Assembly (NCBI GenBank): GCA_905234075.1
Contig: CAJOGI010000001.1
Location: forward strand, 124,001 to 188,000
Length of the DNA stretch: 64,000 bases
Reading direction: 5' to 3'
From: an uncultured Synergistales bacterium
Lineage (GTDB): Bacteria; Synergistota; Synergistia; Synergistales; Aminobacteriaceae
Shown here: one piece after another, positions 8,422 through 61,522 of the stretch
How positions within the stretch are numbered: position 1 is the stretch's first letter
Layout: every line of letters begins with the position of its first letter
Notes under the pieces: model-generated
Database searches by the model: none
The model's input: the letters and a program-made list of their open reading frames with translations, nothing else
What the model was told of the DNA's origin: nothing
Position numbers and translations under genes: made by a program

Positions 8422-8455
8422 AAGCAGTTCTCTGAATGAAGAGGACTGCTTTTTT
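8422..8455 (+). terminator. Rho-independent terminator of the antiporter operon
   Basis: AAGCAGTTCTCT and AGAGGACTGCTT form a 12-bp stem (one G-U pair) around a GAATGA loop, followed by six T. It lies 24 bases after the last antiporter gene. Confidence 0.9.
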
Positions 8456-8519
8456 GGGCACTACAATGGGGACTACAAAGGTCTTAAAATTTTTCAGAGT
8501 TCATAAAAATTTACGAAGC
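8456..8519 (+). repeat. Dispersed ACTACA repeat, copy 1
   Basis: Two tandem units of (G)GGGACTACAAT (the first starts GGGCACTACAAT) are followed by a conserved tail with TTAAAATTTTT and CATAAAAATTTACG. The same arrangement occurs at 36986-37049, 26195-26256 and 59400-59460. It directly follows the antiporter terminator. Confidence 0.75.
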
Positions 8520-8654: not shown

Positions 8655-11600
8655 TTATTTTTTAACTCGTCTCAAATTCACATACAGGCCAAGAATTAAA
8701 AGCAGGAACAAAAATAAACTCCTAACTCCTAACTTCTCACTCCTAACTGAAACACAGCCGCCTCCGCCGCCCGATGAGCCTGACGAAGCTGAACTAGCCG
8801 CGCTTGATTTTGTTCCCGAAGTTTTATTTTGCGCGTTAGTTGTCTGTGATGTTGTCGATGATGAGGCCGCATATTTTTGAGCGAGCCACATTGTGCCGTA
8901 GATTTCTCCGTCGTCTAAACCGTCAGGGACAACGAGCAATTTATTTCCGTTATTTCCTTCAACGAGCTGCGCCTGATTAGACGAAGCCTCAGAATTTACA
9001 ATCGTGCCGGAATAATTTGAGCTTGAGTTGACGTTTGCAACGTAAGCCGTAAGTTTCACTAGAAGCCCTTTTCCGTCATCGCTGGCAATAAGTTCGAGCG
9101 CGCCGCAGTCTAGGGCATCGAAAATATTTACCGCGCTGTTTGTGCCGAGAACGGGAACTGAAGAATTTTTGCCTTGAAATTCAAAACGAAGAGACTTGAA
9201 AATTTTTTCAGCCGCTGAATAATTCAAAGGTGCGTCAAATTCATATGACATTGCTAAATCTTCTTCAATGCTTGAATAAATTTCGCTGCCCAGTGCCGCT
9301 TTAAGTTCCGAGCCGGAAAATTCCCAAGGGAAAATTAACGGGAACATGTCGCCGGTATTAACTCCTGCGAAACTTACAGAGAAGCCTGCGCCCATTGAAG
9401 GCGTATAACCGTCCGAAGCAGAGTAAACAGTATTGAGATCAAATGCCGAATTTGTGAAGCTTGAAACGACAGCCGCAGAAGTTCCCCAGATTTTATTATA
9501 AATAGTCTGGAATATATCGCTTTGAACTATATCGAGATTGCTGTCAACAAGTCCGTAGCCGAGATTATATTCTTCAAAATTGTAGCGGAGTTCACGAAGC
9601 ATTAAGAGCGCGTCAGAATTTCCAGAGAGCGGCGAATTATTCAGATCTCCGAAAGTATATTCGGGGTCGATTTTTATTCTTGCGCTGTCTGAAGGATATT
9701 CGCCGGCACTGTTTGCGCGCTGTGTCGTTGCTGTAACGGTTACGTAAGTCTGCCCTGTCGTTACTCGTCTTGCTGTGATTATGCCGTTTTTATCGACAAC
9801 TAAATACCCCGTCGGACTGACTGACCAGTTGACGGCCTCTTCGCCCGAACCTGTGCCTGCATAAGCTGTAGTTCTGTTCGTGTAATATATTTTAGCGACA
9901 AGGCTTGCGGTCTGTCCTATACGCCTCATTGAATTAGGCACGCCGCTGAGAATTACGTATGATATTTCATAAGGGTGTGTATCGTCGCTCGTTCTCTCTA
10001 CAGAACCGAAAAATACCGGGCCTATGTCCAAGTCAGTACCCGGAGCCCGTCTATCGACTCCGCGCTGGTCATACTGCGGAAAACGGAAGCGTGCACTTCT
10101 ATACGGAATTATATTAATAGCTGTATATGTAAGCGCAAGATTTTCATCTTCTTTGAGCATAATAGTTTTAAGTCTTAAAGTCGAGTCGGCGAGCGTCGAA
10201 CCGATATAAGGCGGTACCGTGCTGCTCACTTCATTAACAGCAAGAGTATTGTCTGAATAAAATGTCGCCATTGTCCACGTGGTGTCTGACTCGTCGCCTG
10301 TTGCGCCCGGACCGGCCTTCCAGCCTGTTCTGCCCTGAACAGTCTCATAAATTCCTACTCTGTTATATCCGCCGGATCTGATTTCTTCATTAACTCTTGA
10401 GTAAACGTCGCTGGGAGCATTGTTGCCTACAACGAGAGTACCTAAAATTTCTACGGTGCCTGCCTCAACACAAACCCCTCCGCCCTGCGTTATGGCAGTA
10501 TTTTTCAAGAAAGCACTGCTTCTTATTGTTATGTTGCCCAATGCAGTCATGCCGCCGCCTGAACTTGAGCTGCTGCCGTTATTAGCCTGATTTTCAAAGA
10601 ATGTGCAGTTATCAACAAGTGTCTGCGTTGATGATGTGCCGTTAGAAACGTCGAGATATAAACCGCCGCCCTTTGCGTCCGTTCCGCCCATCGCGTTATT
10701 GGCGTAAAAAGTACAGCTGTCTATAGTCGCGCTGTCAGCCTCGATGAAAGCACCGCCGCCCTGACCGCCGTCAGCGACATTGCCCTCAAGCATTGATGAT
10801 TTTATGGCAAAACTAGTTCCTCTTCCGGTTTGTGAAAAATAAACCGCTCCGCCGTTTTGTGATGAGTGGTTGCCCTTAAAATAGCTTGTGTTTACTTGAA
10901 TACTTCCATAAACTTGAATCGCTCCGCCGTATTGTGCTTCATTAGTTTCAAAAGTAGATTTAGTAACGGTTGTAGTGCTTCCCTCAAGGTCTAAAGCACC
11001 GCCGCGAATTAATGCTGAATTATTCAAAAAATATGTGTCTGTAATATTGACCGTTGAAGTATCGGCGTAAACGGCACCGCCCGAACGCGATGTCTTATTA
11101 TTCGATAATGAAGAGCTGTTTATTGTTAATGCTCCGCCGGCAGGAGAATAGAGCGCACCGCCTCTTTGATTGAGCGAGGCATCTCCGTTAGTGTCAAAAC
11201 TTGATGAAGTAATGCCAATGTTAAGGGCATAAACGGCACCGCCGTCAACAGCGTTTTGATTTTGTACAGTTGAATTATTTACGGTAACAGTACCGGACGC
11301 TGAATAAACAAAACCGCCGCCTCCGTTAGTCGCCGTATTTACTTCAGATATTGTTAAGCCCTCAATAGTTACGCTTCCGCTGTTGGTAGCGATCGCGCCT
11401 CCGTTGTTATATGCAGTATTATTCGTAAAATTTATTTTGTCAGAGTCCATTAGAAGCGTATCAGTCCCGGCAAAATAGACAGCACCGCCGCTTCCTGCGT
11501 TATTCGATACGGTTGTCGAACCTCCGAGTGTCGCATTTTCTGAAAAAGTAATTTCTTCATCATCTGTTGTAGTAAAAGCCGTCTTAAAATCCGAGCCTTT

Positions 11601-13418
11601 ACCGCCCCAATAGACAGCACCGCCGTCTCCGTAATCAAGATTATCAATATTAGCTTGATTTTTAGTGAAAGTTGTCTTTGTTGCAAATTTTAGTGAGCCG
11701 TTCGATGTCGTGTAAACAGCACCGCCGCTGTCTAAGGCCGTATTATTTTGAAAATCGGTTGCGCCGTTGAAATTCAGTCCGCCTCTTTCGATATAAAGCG
11801 CACCGCCGACCCAAGCCGTATTTGCATTCTCTGTTCCGAATGAAGCCTCGCCGCTGATGCCGACTCTGCCGCTCCCTGTTGACGCAACAGCCCCGCCGGC
11901 TTGAGCTGTGTTTCCGTTAAACTTCACTGTCCCTAACGCTGATGTTCCTGAACTTGCAAAACAAATTGCACCGCCTAAGCCTGTTGCAGGATTTCCTCCG
12001 CTTGTAGGATCTGTTGTCACGGAACTGTAATCGCCTGCCTTATTGCCTGCGAAAACTAGAGTCGCGCTATTGTTGGCTATTCTTCCGCTACCTTCAGCGT
12101 AAACAGCACCGCCGCTGCCTGAGGCCGTGTTTGATGTAAATGTAACAGTTCCGCCCATAGTCGCAAGCCCTGAGCCTGTTATGAAAATCGCGCCTCCGTT
12201 TGTAGCTGCCGTGTTGCTCGTGAAAGTCGGATTGCCGCTGAAAGTAACGCCATCGCCTGTAGCTATATACAAGGCTCCTCCATTAGCCGCATTGTTGCCT
12301 GAAAAAGCGTAACTGCCTGAAAAAGTTGCTGCACCGCCTGCCGCATACAACGCACCTCCGGCAGTAGTTGCAGCATTATTTGTAAATGTGTTCGTGCCTG
12401 TAAACGACGCAGTCCCTCCGGCCTGATAAACCGCGCCGCCGTTCGTAACAGTATTGGCTGCGCTGAATGTATTTGTGCCGCCGAAACTTACATCGCCTGC
12501 TGCGATATAGACAGCACCGCCGTTTGTTGCTTTGTTAGTGCCGTTAAAAACGTTTGTTCCAGCCAAACTAACGCTTCCTGCTTCGATATAAATTACTCCG
12601 CCGTCTCCTGTAGCGGTATTCGTTCCGCTGAATGTATTTGTGCCGCTCTCAAATGAAACCGTGCCGGCCTTAACGTAAATTACACCGCCGTTTGCTGCCG
12701 TATATGTGCCGCTGAAAGTATTTGCGCCGGGAAAATTCACCGTGCCTCCTGCGATATAAACGGCACCGCCTTCTGAAGCAGTGTTAGTCGAAAAAGTATT
12801 TGTGCCTGCAAAACTGACAGTCCCTCCCGTTGCACCAACGTAGACGGCTCCTCCTGTTGTATTTGAAGGAGAAGCGTTGCCGGTAGCGTCAATATTATTA
12901 AACGTTACGCCGGTGAATGTTGTTGTACCGCCCGTATCAATCTGAACGCCGCCGCCGGAATTTCCTGCGAAGGTCTGATTATTGAAAGCAAGAGTAAAGC
13001 CGGATTTATCTACTATGAAATGCCTTCCGCCTGCAACATTGGTGATCGAATGGGCTCCTGAAAAACTCACGGAAGTAAGGCTGCCGTAATCGCTGAATGT
13101 TATAGCCTCCGTCAACGTTTCATCTTTCTCAAGAGTTATTGTAATATCAGGGAAGTTTACCGCCGAGTCGGTCAACGTCAGTCCCAAATAACCTGCCGGA
13201 TTGTTAGCAAATGAAAGAGCGTTTTTTATCGATGTGAATTTATACGGCGGAGAGTTCAGCGTATATATATCTTCGCTTGTTACATCATCGCTTGTGCCCG
13301 TATAAAGATCGCTGTCGCTTGCGCTTGATGTTACAACAAGACTCGTAGCTCCGTAGGCCGCTGAAAAATTCAAGACTAAAATTAAAGTCAATGAGAGCAA
13401 AAATTTTTTTATATTCAT
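8655..13418 (-). CDS. Giant Pmp-like repeat surface protein with Synergist C-terminal sorting signal
   Basis: The 1587-residue protein has a signal peptide (KKFLLSLTLILVLNFSAAYG). Residues ~150-1060 are dozens of repeats of GGAVY / F-G-NTFS-N-A / GGA type, the pattern of right-handed beta-helix Pmp and autotransporter passengers. A bacterial Ig-like segment follows around 1190-1280 (ASLVAKIYYTNRTT ... YVTVTATT), then a globular part, a Ser/Thr linker, and SSGGGGGC with a hydrophobic stretch and RRVKK. The last part matches the Synergist-type sorting tail. Between Cys and the membrane stretch is VSVRSEKLGVRS, encoded by a heptad repeat (8718-8750). It is cotranscribed with the next gene (6 bases apart); AGAGGTAA precedes the ATG. 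Likely a surface adhesin; the target is unknown. Confidence 0.8.
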   Translation of the reverse strand: MNIKKFLLSLTLILVLNFSAAYGATSLVVTSSASDSDLYTGTSDDVTSEDIYTLNSPPYKFTSIKNALSFANNPAGYLGLTLTDSAVNFPDITITLEKDETLTEAITFSDYGSLTSVSFSGAHSITNVAGGRHFIVDKSGFTLAFNNQTFAGNSGGGVQIDTGGTTTFTGVTFNNIDATGNASPSNTTGGAVYVGATGGTVSFAGTNTFSTNTASEGGAVYIAGGTVNFPGANTFSGTYTAANGGVIYVKAGTVSFESGTNTFSGTNTATGDGGVIYIEAGSVSLAGTNVFNGTNKATNGGAVYIAAGDVSFGGTNTFSAANTVTNGGAVYQAGGTASFTGTNTFTNNAATTAGGALYAAGGAATFSGSYAFSGNNAANGGALYIATGDGVTFSGNPTFTSNTAATNGGAIFITGSGLATMGGTVTFTSNTASGSGGAVYAEGSGRIANNSATLVFAGNKAGDYSSVTTDPTSGGNPATGLGGAICFASSGTSALGTVKFNGNTAQAGGAVASTGSGRVGISGEASFGTENANTAWVGGALYIERGGLNFNGATDFQNNTALDSGGAVYTTSNGSLKFATKTTFTKNQANIDNLDYGDGGAVYWGGKGSDFKTAFTTTDDEEITFSENATLGGSTTVSNNAGSGGAVYFAGTDTLLMDSDKINFTNNTAYNNGGAIATNSGSVTIEGLTISEVNTATNGGGGFVYSASGTVTVNNSTVQNQNAVDGGAVYALNIGITSSSFDTNGDASLNQRGGALYSPAGGALTINSSSLSNNKTSRSGGAVYADTSTVNITDTYFLNNSALIRGGALDLEGSTTTVTKSTFETNEAQYGGAIQVYGSIQVNTSYFKGNHSSQNGGAVYFSQTGRGTSFAIKSSMLEGNVADGGQGGGAFIEADSATIDSCTFYANNAMGGTDAKGGGLYLDVSNGTSSTQTLVDNCTFFENQANNGSSSSSGGGMTALGNITIRSSAFLKNTAITQGGGVCVEAGTVEILGTLVVGNNAPSDVYSRVNEEIRSGGYNRVGIYETVQGRTGWKAGPGATGDESDTTWTMATFYSDNTLAVNEVSSTVPPYIGSTLADSTLRLKTIMLKEDENLALTYTAINIIPYRSARFRFPQYDQRGVDRRAPGTDLDIGPVFFGSVERTSDDTHPYEISYVILSGVPNSMRRIGQTASLVAKIYYTNRTTAYAGTGSGEEAVNWSVSPTGYLVVDKNGIITARRVTTGQTYVTVTATTQRANSAGEYPSDSARIKIDPEYTFGDLNNSPLSGNSDALLMLRELRYNFEEYNLGYGLVDSNLDIVQSDIFQTIYNKIWGTSAAVVSSFTNSAFDLNTVYSASDGYTPSMGAGFSVSFAGVNTGDMFPLIFPWEFSGSELKAALGSEIYSSIEEDLAMSYEFDAPLNYSAAEKIFKSLRFEFQGKNSSVPVLGTNSAVNIFDALDCGALELIASDDGKGLLVKLTAYVANVNSSSNYSGTIVNSEASSNQAQLVEGNNGNKLLVVPDGLDDGEIYGTMWLAQKYAASSSTTSQTTNAQNKTSGTKSSAASSASSGSSGGGGGCVSVRSEKLGVRSLFLFLLLILGLYVNLRRVKK
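8718..8750 (-). repeat. Heptad array (TAGGAGT family) inside coding sequence
   Basis: On the minus strand the sequence runs CAGTTAGGAGTGAGAAG then TTAGGAGTTAGGAGT. Unlike all other copies in the window it is read through in frame, adding about 11 residues (VRSEKLGVRS) inside the sorting tail of the giant surface protein. Confidence 0.75.
11900..12900 (-). repeat. Degenerate coding repeats of about 66-69 bp
   Basis: Within the giant surface protein the 22-23-residue unit (for example GGAVYIAAGDVSFGGTNTFS) recurs about a dozen times between roughly residues 170 and 500, with the GTNTF, TNGGAVY and AAG cores best conserved. Neighbouring units are close enough to suggest recent duplication by recombination. 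Confidence 0.65.
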
Positions 13419-21390: not shown

Positions 21391-21416
21391 AGGTTAGGAA
21401 TTAGGAGTTAGGAATT
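21385..21416 (+). repeat. Heptad array overlapping the GGDEF gene stop codon
   Basis: CAGGTAGAGGTTAGGAA followed by TTAGGAGTTAGGAATT. The TAG stop of the diguanylate cyclase gene (21388-21390) is part of the first unit. Confidence 0.75.
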
Positions 21417-26194: not shown

Positions 26195-26256
26195 GTTGTA
26201 AAAATTTATGGAAGCTAAAAATTTTTAATGTTTTTGTAGTGCCCATTGTAGTCCCC
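26195..26256 (-). repeat. Dispersed ACTACA repeat, copy 3 (reverse orientation)
   Basis: On the minus strand: GGGGACTACAAT, then GGGCACTACAA, then CATTAAAAATTTTTAGC and CATAAATTTTTAC. It lies in the 278-bp spacer between the aldo/keto reductase start and the hydrolase stop. Confidence 0.75.
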
Positions 26257-26332
26257 AAATCTCAACTCCCCCAAAATTTTTTAGAAAAGGTTAGAAGTAT
26301 TTTATCATAATTTTTTTGAGTGTAAAAAAGGA

Positions 26333-29751: not shown

Positions 29752-29806
29752 CAGGTAGGAATTAGGAGGTAGGAGGTAGGAGGTTTTTTGCTTCCTGCCT
29801 CTTAAT
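29752..29806 (+). repeat. Heptad array with inverted partner (hairpin) after P19 gene
   Basis: CAGGTAGGAATTAGG then GGTAGGAGGTAGGAGG, TTTTTTG, and CTTCCTGCCTCTTAATT. The last 10 bases of the left arm pair with CTTCCTGCCT using G-U pairs. The array starts 3 bases after the P19 stop codon. A partial terminator or mRNA-processing hairpin is plausible. Confidence 0.7.
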
Positions 29807-31112: not shown

Positions 31113-31137
31113 GTTAGGAGGTAGGAGTTAGGAGGTA
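31111..31137 (+). repeat. Heptad array at the DUF2318 gene stop codon
   Basis: GAGTTAGGAGGTAGGAG followed by TTAGGAGGTA. It begins inside the TGA stop (31110-31112). Confidence 0.75.
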
Positions 31138-32469: not shown

Positions 32470-32499
32470 CAGGTAGGAGTTAGGAGGTAGGAAGTAGGA
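32470..32499 (+). repeat. Heptad array that also supplies a ribosome binding site
   Basis: CAGGTAGGAGTTAGG then AGGTAGGAAGTAGGA runs directly into the ATG at 32500. The gene has no other Shine-Dalgarno sequence, so the repeat itself (AGGAGG/AGGAAG) must serve. Confidence 0.75.
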
Positions 32500-34378: not shown

Positions 34379-34449
34379 TTAGGAGTTGGGGATTTTTTTA
34401 CCTCCTACCTCCTAACTCCTAACTCCTACTTGAATTAACTCCTAACTGA
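34379..34449. repeat. Inverted heptad arrays between convergent genes
   Basis: TTAGGAGTTGGGGA is separated by a T-run from ACCTCCTACCTCCTAACTCC and further reverse units. The arms can pair with a few mismatches, giving a hairpin between the ABC ATPase (+) and larC (-). On the minus strand the first unit contains the larC stop codon (TTC AGT TAG GAG). Confidence 0.72.
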
Positions 34450-36853: not shown

Positions 36854-36985
36854 TTGGGGAAAATTTTTAATGGTCTCCGTAATGTCCGCAACACTTAGAG
36901 AAAAAATATTTTTTCGTGCTATAATTTTTTTTAACTTATCAAAAAATTTCAGAGACTTAATAAAAAATCCGAAGAAGAAAATTTT

Positions 36986-37049
36986 GGGGACTACAATGGG
37001 GACTACAAGAATGTTAAAAATTTTTAGCGGCCATAAATTTTTACGCGGC
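36986..37049 (+). repeat. Dispersed ACTACA repeat, copy 2
   Basis: GGGGACTACAAT and GGGGACTACAA in tandem, then GTTAAAAATTTTTAGCGG and CATAAATTTTTACGCGGC. This is the cleanest of the four copies. Confidence 0.78.
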
Positions 37050-37096: not shown

Positions 37097-37124
37097 GACC
37101 TCCTGCCTCCTAACTCCTACCTCA
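37097..37124 (-). repeat. Heptad array upstream of the ftsEX operon
   Basis: On the minus strand: ATGAGGTAGGAGTTAGG then AGGCAGGAGGTC. It is the one clear copy that does not abut a stop codon. Confidence 0.7.
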
Positions 37125-39650: not shown

Positions 39651-39676
39651 GGCAGGAGTTAGGAGTTAGGAGTTAA
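39648..39676 (+). repeat. Heptad array between ftsX and the first M23 gene
   Basis: TGAGGCAGGAGTTAGGAG then TTAGGAGTTAAG. It starts at the ftsX stop codon and its last GGAG is the only candidate ribosome binding site of the M23 gene at 39684. Confidence 0.75.
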
Positions 39677-39683
39677 GAAAATT

Positions 39684-40863: not shown

Positions 40864-42075
40864 ATGATGAAAAAAATTTTTGCTGTCATTTTAATTTTAG
40901 CTGTTTTCATGGATTTGACCGCATATGCCGCGAGTATCGATAGTCAGATAAAGTCCCAGCAGCGCAGTCAAAGCGACATGAAGAAAAAAATTCAAAAATA
41001 TAACGCCATAGCTCGTGAAAAATCTAAGCAGTCAAAAACTTTATTAGGCCAGCTTTCAAGATTGCGTCAGGACGCAAGTGCGTCTAAGGCAAAAATGGAT
41101 GACCTCGAAAAAGAAAATATAAAACTTCAAAACTCTGTTGGCGAGCTAAATAAAAATATTGCCCATGTACGTGATTCAATAAATGCAATTATCAGGACGT
41201 TACGCGCAAGAGTTTTAGATATTTATAAACATACTCCCGAAGAAAATTCTTTGAGCCTAATAATTACTTCAAACGGCCCTCATGACGCTTTGAACACGGC
41301 GTATATGTTGCAGTGTTTTGCCCGTCAAGACAGCGCAATGATTGAAGAGCTAGCCAAGCGCGAGGAAGAATTAAAAGCCGCAAAAAAACGCCTTGAAAAT
41401 AATAAGTCGCAGATTTTAAGGCAGACCGAAGAATTAAAAAAGAAACGCGCTGAATATGACAGCACGATTAAAAAAACTGACTCGCTATTAAAAAATGTTC
41501 AGAGCGAACAGAAACAAGCCGAAGCTGCTGCAAAAGAACTTGAGGCTGCTCAAAGAGCAGTAGGGAACAAAATAAATTCTTTGATGAAGCAGAAAAAAAA
41601 TAATGCCGCGAAAAAAAGTCAAAGCGCGGAAAAAAATTCTTCGTCAGCAAAATCGCAGTCAGCTCCGACAACTTCCAAAAGTTCCGTTAAAACTTTAATA
41701 TGGCCGGTGAATGGAACGGTAACGATGCAATACGGCTCAAGAGTTCACCCGGTATTTAAGACAAAAATTTTTAACTCGGGAATTGACATCAAGGCCGCTG
41801 CCGGAACTCCCGTTAAAGCCGCCGGGCCCGGAGAAGTTTTGTATCAGGGCTGGTTAAAAGGCTTTGGTCAAGTCATAATAATAGATCACGGCGGGGATTT
41901 GTCGACAGTCTACGCTCATTTAGGAGGCGCGTCAGTCCGTGAAGGAAGCACGGTAAAGGCAGGAACAGTCATCGGGCGCGTTGGAAATTCCGGAACTGAT
42001 TCAGAGTTCGGACTTCACTTTGAAGTCAGAAAGAACGGAAGTGCGCAAAATCCCATGAACTTTTTGAAGAAGTAG
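40864..42075 (+). CDS. EnvC-like M23-family protein, degenerate zinc site
   Basis: This 403-residue paralogue of the gene before has a signal peptide, coiled coil (~20-245), a Ser/Lys-rich linker and a LytM domain. Two zinc ligands are lost: NSGIDIKAA where the active copy has HSGIDIAAP, and FGLHFEVR where it has YHLHFEVR. Loss of these residues is the mark of EnvC/NlpD-type activators of amidases. So the pair may be one enzyme and one activator. AAGGAG stands upstream of the ATG. The TAG stop is the first three bases of a heptad array. Confidence 0.87.
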   Translation: MMKKIFAVILILAVFMDLTAYAASIDSQIKSQQRSQSDMKKKIQKYNAIAREKSKQSKTLLGQLSRLRQDASASKAKMDDLEKENIKLQNSVGELNKNIAHVRDSINAIIRTLRARVLDIYKHTPEENSLSLIITSNGPHDALNTAYMLQCFARQDSAMIEELAKREEELKAAKKRLENNKSQILRQTEELKKKRAEYDSTIKKTDSLLKNVQSEQKQAEAAAKELEAAQRAVGNKINSLMKQKKNNAAKKSQSAEKNSSSAKSQSAPTTSKSSVKTLIWPVNGTVTMQYGSRVHPVFKTKIFNSGIDIKAAAGTPVKAAGPGEVLYQGWLKGFGQVIIIDHGGDLSTVYAHLGGASVREGSTVKAGTVIGRVGNSGTDSEFGLHFEVRKNGSAQNPMNFLKK

Positions 42076-42159
42076 GAGTTAGGAGGTAGGAGTTAGGAAG
42101 TGAAAAAATACTTCCTACCTCCTAATTCCTAATTCCTACCTGATATTACTTCCTAACTG
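42072..42159. repeat. Long inverted heptad arrays (hairpin of about 29 bp)
   Basis: Four forward units ending TTAGGAAGT are followed by an 8-base loop and ACTTCCTACCTCC plus further reverse units. The arms pair over about 29 bp with four mismatched positions. The left arm contains the stop codon of the second M23 gene. It may terminate or attenuate transcription before ctpA. Confidence 0.78.
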
Positions 42160-44732: not shown

Positions 44733-44764
44733 AACTCCTAACTCCTGCTTCCTACCTCCTACCT
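44733..44764 (-). repeat. Heptad array after purA
   Basis: On the minus strand: TCAGGTAGGAGGTAGG then AAGCAGGAGTTAGGAGT. It begins 1-2 bases after the purA stop and ends 8 bases before the next start codon. Confidence 0.73.
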
Positions 44765-52609: not shown

Positions 52610-52684
52610 TTAGGGGTCAGGAATTTTTTTAACTCCCCGCCTGCGTCGGGCAGGCTAATTCCTAATCCCTAACTCCTAACTGAA
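52610..52684. repeat. Inverted heptad arrays with an embedded GC-rich palindrome
   Basis: On the minus strand, TTCAGTTAGGAGTTAGGG and TTAGGAATTAGCCTGCC are followed by a GC-rich palindrome (52636-52655) and CCTGACCCCTAATT. The array begins at the stop codon of the substrate-binding protein gene. The palindrome has interrupted the array. Confidence 0.72.
52636..52655. repeat. GC-rich palindrome inside a heptad array
   Basis: CCCGCCTGCGTCGGGCAGGC has GCCTGC and GCAGGC arms. It closely resembles the palindrome at 6738-6758 in mnhD, so both may be copies of one small mobile unit. Confidence 0.6.
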
Positions 52685-59399: not shown

Positions 59400-59460
59400 C
59401 TGTGAATTTTTATGACAAGCAAAAATTTTTGAAGTTTTTGTAGTCCCCATTGTAGTCCCC
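59400..59460 (-). repeat. Dispersed ACTACA repeat, copy 4 (reverse orientation)
   Basis: On the minus strand GGGGACTACAAT and GGGGACTACAA in tandem, then CTTCAAAAATTTTTGC and CATAAAAATTCAC. Confidence 0.75.
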
Positions 59461-59535
59461 AAAAAAAATTTTTATCATGAAAAAAATTATTTTTTAAGAA
59501 TTATACAGCGAACATTAATTTTTTGAAAATCTTTT

Positions 59536-59618: not shown

Positions 59619-61460
59619 GTGAATGACTTTGAAAAAAGGCTCGCAAAAAATTATGATGAGCTTAAATGGCTTTACTATGAACTCTACGGAAATGATAAGC
59701 AGGCTTTTGATTACTTCTGCTCAATGTTAAAAAAGTGCTGGGAGTCGCGCAATGATTTATTAAAAGAACTCGACGAGGCCCGCGAAAAAGTTCCCGACTG
59801 GTACGCAGGCAATGATATTTTAGGCATGATGCTTTACACGGAGTGCTTCGCAAAAAATCTCAAGGGCGTTAAAGAACATCTTGACTATATTCAGGAATGC
59901 GGAGTTAGTTATCTGCATTTAATGCCTCTGCTTGACACTCCCAAAGGACGAAGCGACGGCGGCTATGCTGTCTCGGATTTCAGAAAAGTCCGGCCCGATT
60001 TAGGAACGATTGAAGATTTAGCGGACCTGTCTGAAAAATGCCATTCGCTTGGAATTAGCGTGTGCCTCGACTTCGTTATGAATCACACTAGCGAAGATCA
60101 CGAGTGGGCAATGAGAGCGAAGAAGGGCGAGAAAGAATTTCAGGACAGATATTTTTTCTTTGACACTTGGGAAATTCCGAACCAGTTTGAGCAGCACTTA
60201 CCCGAAGTTTTTCCGACGACAGCTCCGGGAAATTTCACTTTCAACGAAGAATCAGGCAAAGTTGTAATGACGACGTTCTATCCGTATCAATGGGACTTAA
60301 ATTACAGAAACCCCGTCGTCTTTAACGACATGACCGAGAATATGCTTTTCTTATGCAATCAGGGAATTGATATTATCAGGCTCGACGCTGTGCCTTACAT
60401 CTGGAAGACACTCGGAACAAATTGCCGCAACCTTCCGCAGGTTCATACTCTCGTCAGAATTATGAGAATGGCCGCAGAAATTGTTTGTCCCGGAACTTTA
60501 TTGCTAGGCGAAGTTGTAATGGAGCCTTCAAAAGTTGTGCCGTATTTCGGAACTGTCGAGAAGCCTGAGTGCAATATGCTCTACAACGTAACGACGATGG
60601 CAAGCACTTGGCACACAGTTGCAACGAAGGACACGCGCCTGATGAAGCACCAGTTAGCCAGCGTCTTCGCTCTTCCTAAAGAGTATGTTTTCTTGAATTA
60701 TTTACGCTGTCATGATGACATCGGCTGGGGGCTTGATTACGATTTTTTAAGAAATTTTGAAATTGATGAGGTCGCTCACAAAAAATTCCTGAATGATTAT
60801 TTCAAAGGGGATTTCAAAAATTCGCCCTCACGCGGTGAAACTTACAACGACGCTCCAGAACTCGGCGACGCTAGAATGTGCGGAACTACGGCTTCACTCT
60901 GCGGACTTGAGTCAAAAAATAAAGACATGGCCGTAAAACTTGATACTATGCTTCATGCGTTCTTATTAACCCAGAGCGGCATACCCGTTTTATACAGCGG
61001 CGATGAGGTCGGCCAGTTAAACGACTACACGTATCACGACGACCCGGATAAATCAGCGGACAGCAGATATATTCATCGCGGTGCTTTTAATTGGAAGAAC
61101 GCGGAGAAACGCCACGATAAAAAAACGCCTGAAGGAAAAATTTTTGCAGCTCTTCACAAGATGATAAAACTCCGCGACACTCAATCAGTTTTTTCAAATT
61201 CTGCTGACACTTGGCTGATTGAGACGGGAAATGATCACGTGCTTGGAATTGGAAGATATTACGGCGAAAAAACCCAGAAAGAAAAAATGCTCGCGTTCTT
61301 TAATTTCAGCGATGAGGCGCAGATTTTTACGCCTGACGAAATTTTAGGCGGCCTTTTCAATTACAGCGACATGATGACGGGCGAAAGGTTCACCGATAAA
61401 AATTCCGGCAAAATAAAACTTGAGGGCTATGAATTTAAGTGGCTCTTAGCGAATTTATAG
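59619..61460 (+). CDS. GH13 alpha-glucan enzyme, amylosucrase-like
   Basis: The 613-residue protein resembles GH13 subfamily 4 (amylosucrase/sucrose hydrolase): an N-terminal helical part, then the barrel with VSYLHLMPLLDTPKGRSDGG and LDFVMNHTSEDHEWA. Catalytic residues are Asp ~256 (IIRLDAVPYIWK), Glu ~298 (LLGEVVMEP) and Asp ~366 (RCHDDIGWGL). It acts on sucrose or alpha-glucosides; true amylosucrase activity cannot be read from the sequence. No signal peptide, so cytoplasmic. The GTG start has only a weak GAGAG upstream. The stop TAG is inside a heptad array. Confidence 0.87.
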   Translation: MNDFEKRLAKNYDELKWLYYELYGNDKQAFDYFCSMLKKCWESRNDLLKELDEAREKVPDWYAGNDILGMMLYTECFAKNLKGVKEHLDYIQECGVSYLHLMPLLDTPKGRSDGGYAVSDFRKVRPDLGTIEDLADLSEKCHSLGISVCLDFVMNHTSEDHEWAMRAKKGEKEFQDRYFFFDTWEIPNQFEQHLPEVFPTTAPGNFTFNEESGKVVMTTFYPYQWDLNYRNPVVFNDMTENMLFLCNQGIDIIRLDAVPYIWKTLGTNCRNLPQVHTLVRIMRMAAEIVCPGTLLLGEVVMEPSKVVPYFGTVEKPECNMLYNVTTMASTWHTVATKDTRLMKHQLASVFALPKEYVFLNYLRCHDDIGWGLDYDFLRNFEIDEVAHKKFLNDYFKGDFKNSPSRGETYNDAPELGDARMCGTTASLCGLESKNKDMAVKLDTMLHAFLLTQSGIPVLYSGDEVGQLNDYTYHDDPDKSADSRYIHRGAFNWKNAEKRHDKKTPEGKIFAALHKMIKLRDTQSVFSNSADTWLIETGNDHVLGIGRYYGEKTQKEKMLAFFNFSDEAQIFTPDEILGGLFNYSDMMTGERFTDKNSGKIKLEGYEFKWLLANL

Positions 61461-61522
61461 GTAGGAGTTAGGAGGCAGGAGGCAGGAGTTTTTTGTTATT
61501 AACTCCTAATTCCTGCCTGCTT
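61458..61522. repeat. Inverted heptad arrays between convergent genes, coding at both ends
   Basis: TAGGTAGGAGTTAGG and AGGCAGGAGGCAGGAG, a T-rich loop, then CTCCTAATTCCTGCCTGCTTA. The arms pair to make a terminator-like hairpin. The left arm starts with the GH13 stop codon; the right arm encodes the last residues (QAGIRS and stop) of RluD on the other strand. Confidence 0.78.

Follow-up and report, generated by a model that had tools for sequence, protein, structure and literature searches.

How does a short DNA repeat come to be read as protein inside a sorting signal, and does it alter the finished protein? The question is raised by a gene for a giant surface protein in the window (the whole stretch of 64,000 nucleotides that we analyzed, from the source genome G000). 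The end of this gene includes an array of heptads, which lies between a Gly-Cys motif and a hydrophobic segment.

A heptad array within a sorting signal

The protein has 1587 amino acids and is Pmp-like, as TIGR01376 also matches it in profile searches. It ends in ...SSGGGGGC-VSVRSEKLGVRS-LFLFLLLILGLYVNL-RRVKK* (translation of the ORF 13418..8655, minus strand). The tripartite C-terminus (GGGGGC, helix, and basic end) is conserved across orthologues. The features of the gene are:

8655..13418, minus strand: Pmp-repeat giant surface protein with a C-terminal GGxC/hydrophobic/basic sorting signal (ORF translation; PF02415, E 2.6e-21)
8754..8771, minus strand: codons of the GGGGGC motif, with the Cys codon at 8754-8756 (translation and direct reading of the sequence)
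8718..8753, minus strand: linker VSVRSEKLGVRS, 12 residues; orthologues without the insert have about 4-5 at this place (orthologue comparison)
8720..8747, minus strand: heptad array GTTAGGA-GTGAGAA-GTTAGGA-GTTAGGA; in unit 2, GAG stands where TAG would be in frame (repeat search and sequence reading)
8673..8717, minus strand: hydrophobic segment LFLFLLLILGLYVNL (translation)
8658..8672, minus strand: basic C-terminus RRVKK (translation)

Four heptads (8717-8750, minus strand) are translated in frame to VRSEKLGVRS, and TRF reports 4.6 copies of period 7 at 8717-8748. The repeat search and the translation reproduce the array, coordinates, frame, and peptide that an earlier note on this DNA had given. 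The codons of the linker are closer to the heptad than the amino acids demand: none of 2000 synonymous resamplings were as close. As with many intergenic copies, TCA precedes the array (8720..8747). No inverted second arm was found at this array, and folding gave no hairpin there (z -0.2).

Searching with the last 515 residues of the protein turned up relatives in most members of the genus, and we read 30 genus orthologues (tail lengths cover 29 of them). The compared genomes appear to be MAGs; two of them are listed in public records as MAGs of Synergistaceae from the rumen and reticulum of goats. After the Cys, the tail has 32 residues in G000, 31 in G014, 31 in G025, and 23 in the sister species G007. 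The other 25 orthologues belong to species in which heptads are few or absent; their tails have 17-23 residues (median 19) and lack the heptad peptide. The peptide sits at the identical place in the tails of G000, G014, and G025. Their best hydrophobic window begins at offset 12, as compared to 5 in G007 and 4-7 elsewhere. These comparisons bear out the main claim of the earlier note, which was that a heptad array turned coding and lengthened the sorting signal. Furthermore, the array-free orthologues do not have the array's residues, which is the point on which that note had said its claim could fail.

The suggestion that the insertion is recent was not supported, as the G014 orthologue is about 60% identical and bears the same array. 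Array-bearing Pmp orthologues come solely from four heptad-rich genomes. We considered that they might form a single clade, and a tree of the C-terminal domain does not group them: G000, G007, and G014 fall together, while G025 is in a neighbouring clade with the array-free G020, G042, and G008. Given this grouping and the shared array, the array would either predate the split of G000 and G014 or have arisen more than once (one gain plus losses, or two gains). The G007 orthologue, which is otherwise 94% identical, has kept a single heptad unit and lost three in frame, and its gene terminates in a second heptad stretch (EKVGIRN*). At this gene end, homology between G000 and G007 breaks off inside the array (window 8738; L106 = G007:C69 1925-1984), which makes a rearrangement at the array likely.

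To which class does the signal belong? The focal tail did not match TIGR04564 (Synerg-CTERM; cut-off 22.5 bits), and the uninserted orthologues that were tested scored at most 13.2; two other proteins of the genome exceed the cut-off. We therefore call the signal Synerg-CTERM-like and do not file it as a member of TIGR04564. Synerg-CTERM signals are processed by the protease MrtS. The sole Rce1-like protein of the genome is a MrtS-type CPBP protease (G000:C3:34049-34315; L278), a fragment of which passes NF040589 (MrtS) at 138 bits versus a cut-off of 130. MrtS is a candidate processor of these Cys signals, and ordinary short-linker signals occur alongside the long-linker ones within the same genome.

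The heptad repeat and its variation among relatives

In the window, there are 45 matches to two heptads (TTAGGAGTTAGGAG, with up to 3 mismatches) versus 3.1 expected, and 0 of 100 shuffles reach 45. The genome has 79 exact copies of GTTAGGAGTTAGGA versus none for the reversed control. Exact two-unit copies number 78 in G000, 77 in G007, 81 in G014, 30 in G025, 4 in G008, and 1 in G013, with none in the remaining 31 members of the genus or in 24 genomes of other genera. That is, the heptad is limited to about six of the 37 genus members checked and is not in the other genera sampled.

The element is an array of 3-5 heptads in tandem (G[TG]TAGGA), often with TCA in front (directly before 31 of 95 non-coding arrays), and about a quarter are followed by an inverted heptad arm. 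The arm is clear after 24 of 92 non-coding arrays and was found on the opposite side of 0 of 92. Folding predicts strong hairpins at the two-armed copies at 42071-42140 and 61460-61516, unlike at the focal array. The other arrays in the window are:

21393..21413, plus strand: heptad array after a stop codon; G007 has it too
29754..29781, plus strand: heptad array; one unit (7 bp) fewer in G007
31113..31133 (= C1:155113), plus strand: heptad array; clean absence in G007, which is 48 bp shorter
32472..32499 (= C1:156472), plus strand: heptad array immediately 5' of a start codon; cleanly absent from G007 (36 bp)
34403..34430, minus strand: heptad array
37101..37121, minus strand: heptad array
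39651..39678, plus strand: heptad array
42071..42140, unstranded: best two-armed element, an array and its inverted copy about a short loop; hairpin of -20.8 kcal/mol (z -7.0; folded stretch 42069-42142)
44735..44764, minus strand: heptad array (TRF)
52660..52680, minus strand: heptad array
61460..61516, unstranded: heptad array plus an inverted arm; folds as a hairpin (z -5.2)

Forty arrays could be compared between G000 and G007. Twelve have an equal number of units, several differ by 7 bp or multiples of it, and 8 of the 40 have no counterpart of at least two units in G007 (by our own criterion). These 8 include clean insertions relative to G007 at C1:155113, C1:156472, C12:34066, and C17:1780.

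For G000, we sorted 107 arrays by context, taking those near the exact two-unit matches, in the window, and in selected further stretches; the majority are intergenic. Array positions rely on our own simple codon-usage gene calls rather than on a published annotation. Of the 67 arrays with an upstream neighbour on their own strand, 59 start in the interval from 19 nt inside that gene to 7 nt past its stop codon. The starts cluster at -5, -12, and -19 relative to the stop codon, so in these cases the gene is closed by the heptad's own TAG. We also considered that the array might be the ribosome-binding site of the next gene. However, this is not general: 11 of 47 arrays lie within 10 nt of a same-strand start, and the others are at least 28 nt away.

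Neither a target-site duplication nor a mobilising enzyme was established for the element. Mobility of the RAYT/REP type was rejected because the main heptad genomes (G000, G007, and G014) have no Y1 transposase (PF01797) in a profile search. Two other repeats were observed. In place of a heptad element, G007 (L179:3261 and its allele of C3:29069) has a longer and different palindrome with CCTGCCTAAGGCAGG between the corresponding genes. And the 12-mer TTGTAGTCCCCA, with 8 matches in the window versus 0.08 expected, forms tandem pairs in AT-rich surroundings at 8455-8478, 26234-26257, 36985-37008, and 59438-59461.

Coding copies and how they might be explained

Tandem GTTAGGA has a TAG in every frame within 21 nt. 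Among the units of non-coding arrays, 324/378 (85.7%) have TAG and 12/378 (3.2%) have GAG, and 67 of 73 non-coding arrays with at least four units have no open frame. The coding arrays that we inspected have GAG (the usual case) or another change where the in-frame TAG would be. An open frame in a coding array is partly a matter of definition; the informative part is how rarely random arrays have one.

Heptad-coded linkers behind the Cys of tails were found by sequence search in G000, G007, G014, G025, and G008. Comparing the rest of the proteins places them in at least 10 families (the search was aimed at Cys-type tails and gives no measure of enrichment). In a second family of surface proteins, the insert is in the tails from G000 and G007 and the G014 orthologue is without it. 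Enzymes have coded heptads as well: PurL carries them in two of its linkers and HisH in a single loop, all in frame. In both enzymes, the peptide is found solely in heptad-bearing species, and the insert sites vary among orthologues in sequence or length. Further candidates, which we name by motif, are CitG-like, Dus-like, and BtuF-like proteins, a 328-aa protein, and a RibD-like protein of G014 (L124, G014:C78, at about 24728), which has VRSEELGVRS in frame. Several seeming arrays within coding sequences fall in doubtful ORFs, and an array next to SecA (C8:48563) begins past the stop codon.

We think it quite probable that the heptad is a lineage-specific small repeat element that is tolerated, in frame, in the Cys-to-helix linker of a Synerg-CTERM-like signal and is discarded with the helix. 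The element would multiply in intergenic DNA, chiefly at gene ends. Within genes, most pure arrays would close the ORF, and the survivors would be open, usually by TAG to GAG. Arrays would persist where protein length is unconstrained, as between the Cys and the helix or in variable loops of enzymes. According to the MYXO-CTERM model, cleavage by the protease is distal to a lipidated Cys (PMC11980579). By analogy, MrtS would process the signal at the Cys and the insert would be shed along with the helix; the joint loss of linker and helix would account for the tolerance of repeat DNA at this site. Probably, then, MrtS removes the portion of the tag that holds the insert, and the finished protein is unchanged. 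The insert looks like tolerated genomic clutter rather than an alteration of the mature protein. As for the changed anchoring that the earlier note proposed, the insert would by this analogy belong to the peptide that is cleaved away, and the G007 orthologue has lost three units of it.

Alternatively, after one founding insertion, whole C-terminal tails might have been copied between surface-protein genes by gene conversion or tail shuffling. This is a serious contender, which we nevertheless consider to be the less probable account. Nearly all of the Cys-tail linkers have a common frame, length, and GAG position, the Pmp and C142 tails of G014 have a common helix start (SVLLLAL), and there are sub-types C[ND]L and C[VAI]S, all of which speak for copying. 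But one pair (G007:C16/G000:C2) uses a second reading frame, CQLGLRSEELGG, with GAG in a different unit; the helices are mostly unlike one another; and enzymes without such a tail bear the same coded heptads. (We also considered that the membrane helix itself derives from the loop and second arm of the element, but this was unsupported: by synonymous resampling, just 1 of 15 tails had p<0.05.)

It is also conceivable, though we consider it unlikely, that a gene-end repeat was domesticated as a standard longer linker. The charged VRSEELGVRS spacer would then mark a second class of Cys signal, which selection maintains and which the protease handles differently or sends to another destination. 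The distance from Cys to helix is constant, and some tails (G000:C17, G007:C7) retain [VI][RK][SN]E[EDG]L even though their DNA has diverged from the heptad; this persistence of the peptide would leave some room for domestication. However, the G007 Pmp tail has lost three units, the linkers of the C2/C16 pair differ between G000 and G007, and ordinary short-linker signals are present in the same genome. Tolerance seems to account better than an essential role for the loss in G007 and for the occurrence of short as well as long linkers in one genome.

Finally, because the array is short and of low complexity, it could encode a repetitive peptide of unrelated origin with codons that resemble the heptad by chance, or be an artefact of assembly. 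We consider this very improbable: codon resampling and the shuffles speak against it, the coded copies are found solely in heptad-bearing species, the orthologue comparison contradicts it, and separate genome assemblies have the same structure.

Relation to known repeats and signals

The best-known case of small repeats fused in frame to conserved genes is Rickettsia. The gut bacteria studied here, of a different phylum, are likely a second such lineage, in which sister species show insertion, copy-number change, and loss. In the literature that we searched, we found no description of this heptad in Synergistota.

The Rickettsia palindromic elements (RPE) are the nearest relatives in behaviour. 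These small repeats are also both intergenic and fused in frame within conserved protein genes, and an RPE-containing Gmk product was shown to retain activity (PMC2229807, PMC10969869). The resemblance is in behaviour only: RPE are 105-146 bp long, encode a conserved peptide, and have terminal inverted repeats, whereas ours is built of heptads in tandem, varies in copy number, often lacks the second arm, and has the linker of a sorting signal as its recurrent coding site. In form, the nearest relatives are the TAACTGA heptamer arrays of Beggiatoaceae and cyanobacteria, which are short and scattered, change in copy number by 7-nt steps between close strains, and have an unexplained mode of spread (PMC4679880). 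They have a different heptamer, and they are nearly all intergenic and mostly just 5' of start codons, while the heptad arrays are mostly at stop codons and partly coding.

The signals share a Cys motif, a membrane helix, and a basic end with both Synerg-CTERM/MrtS and MYXO-CTERM/MrtX, and MrtS is encoded in this genome. Ordinary signals of these types have a linker of 4-7 residues, while a subset here have about 11-12 residues derived from repeat DNA. Together, the short- and long-linker signals are a natural series which could reveal what distances between Cys and helix a myxosortase-type protease accepts.
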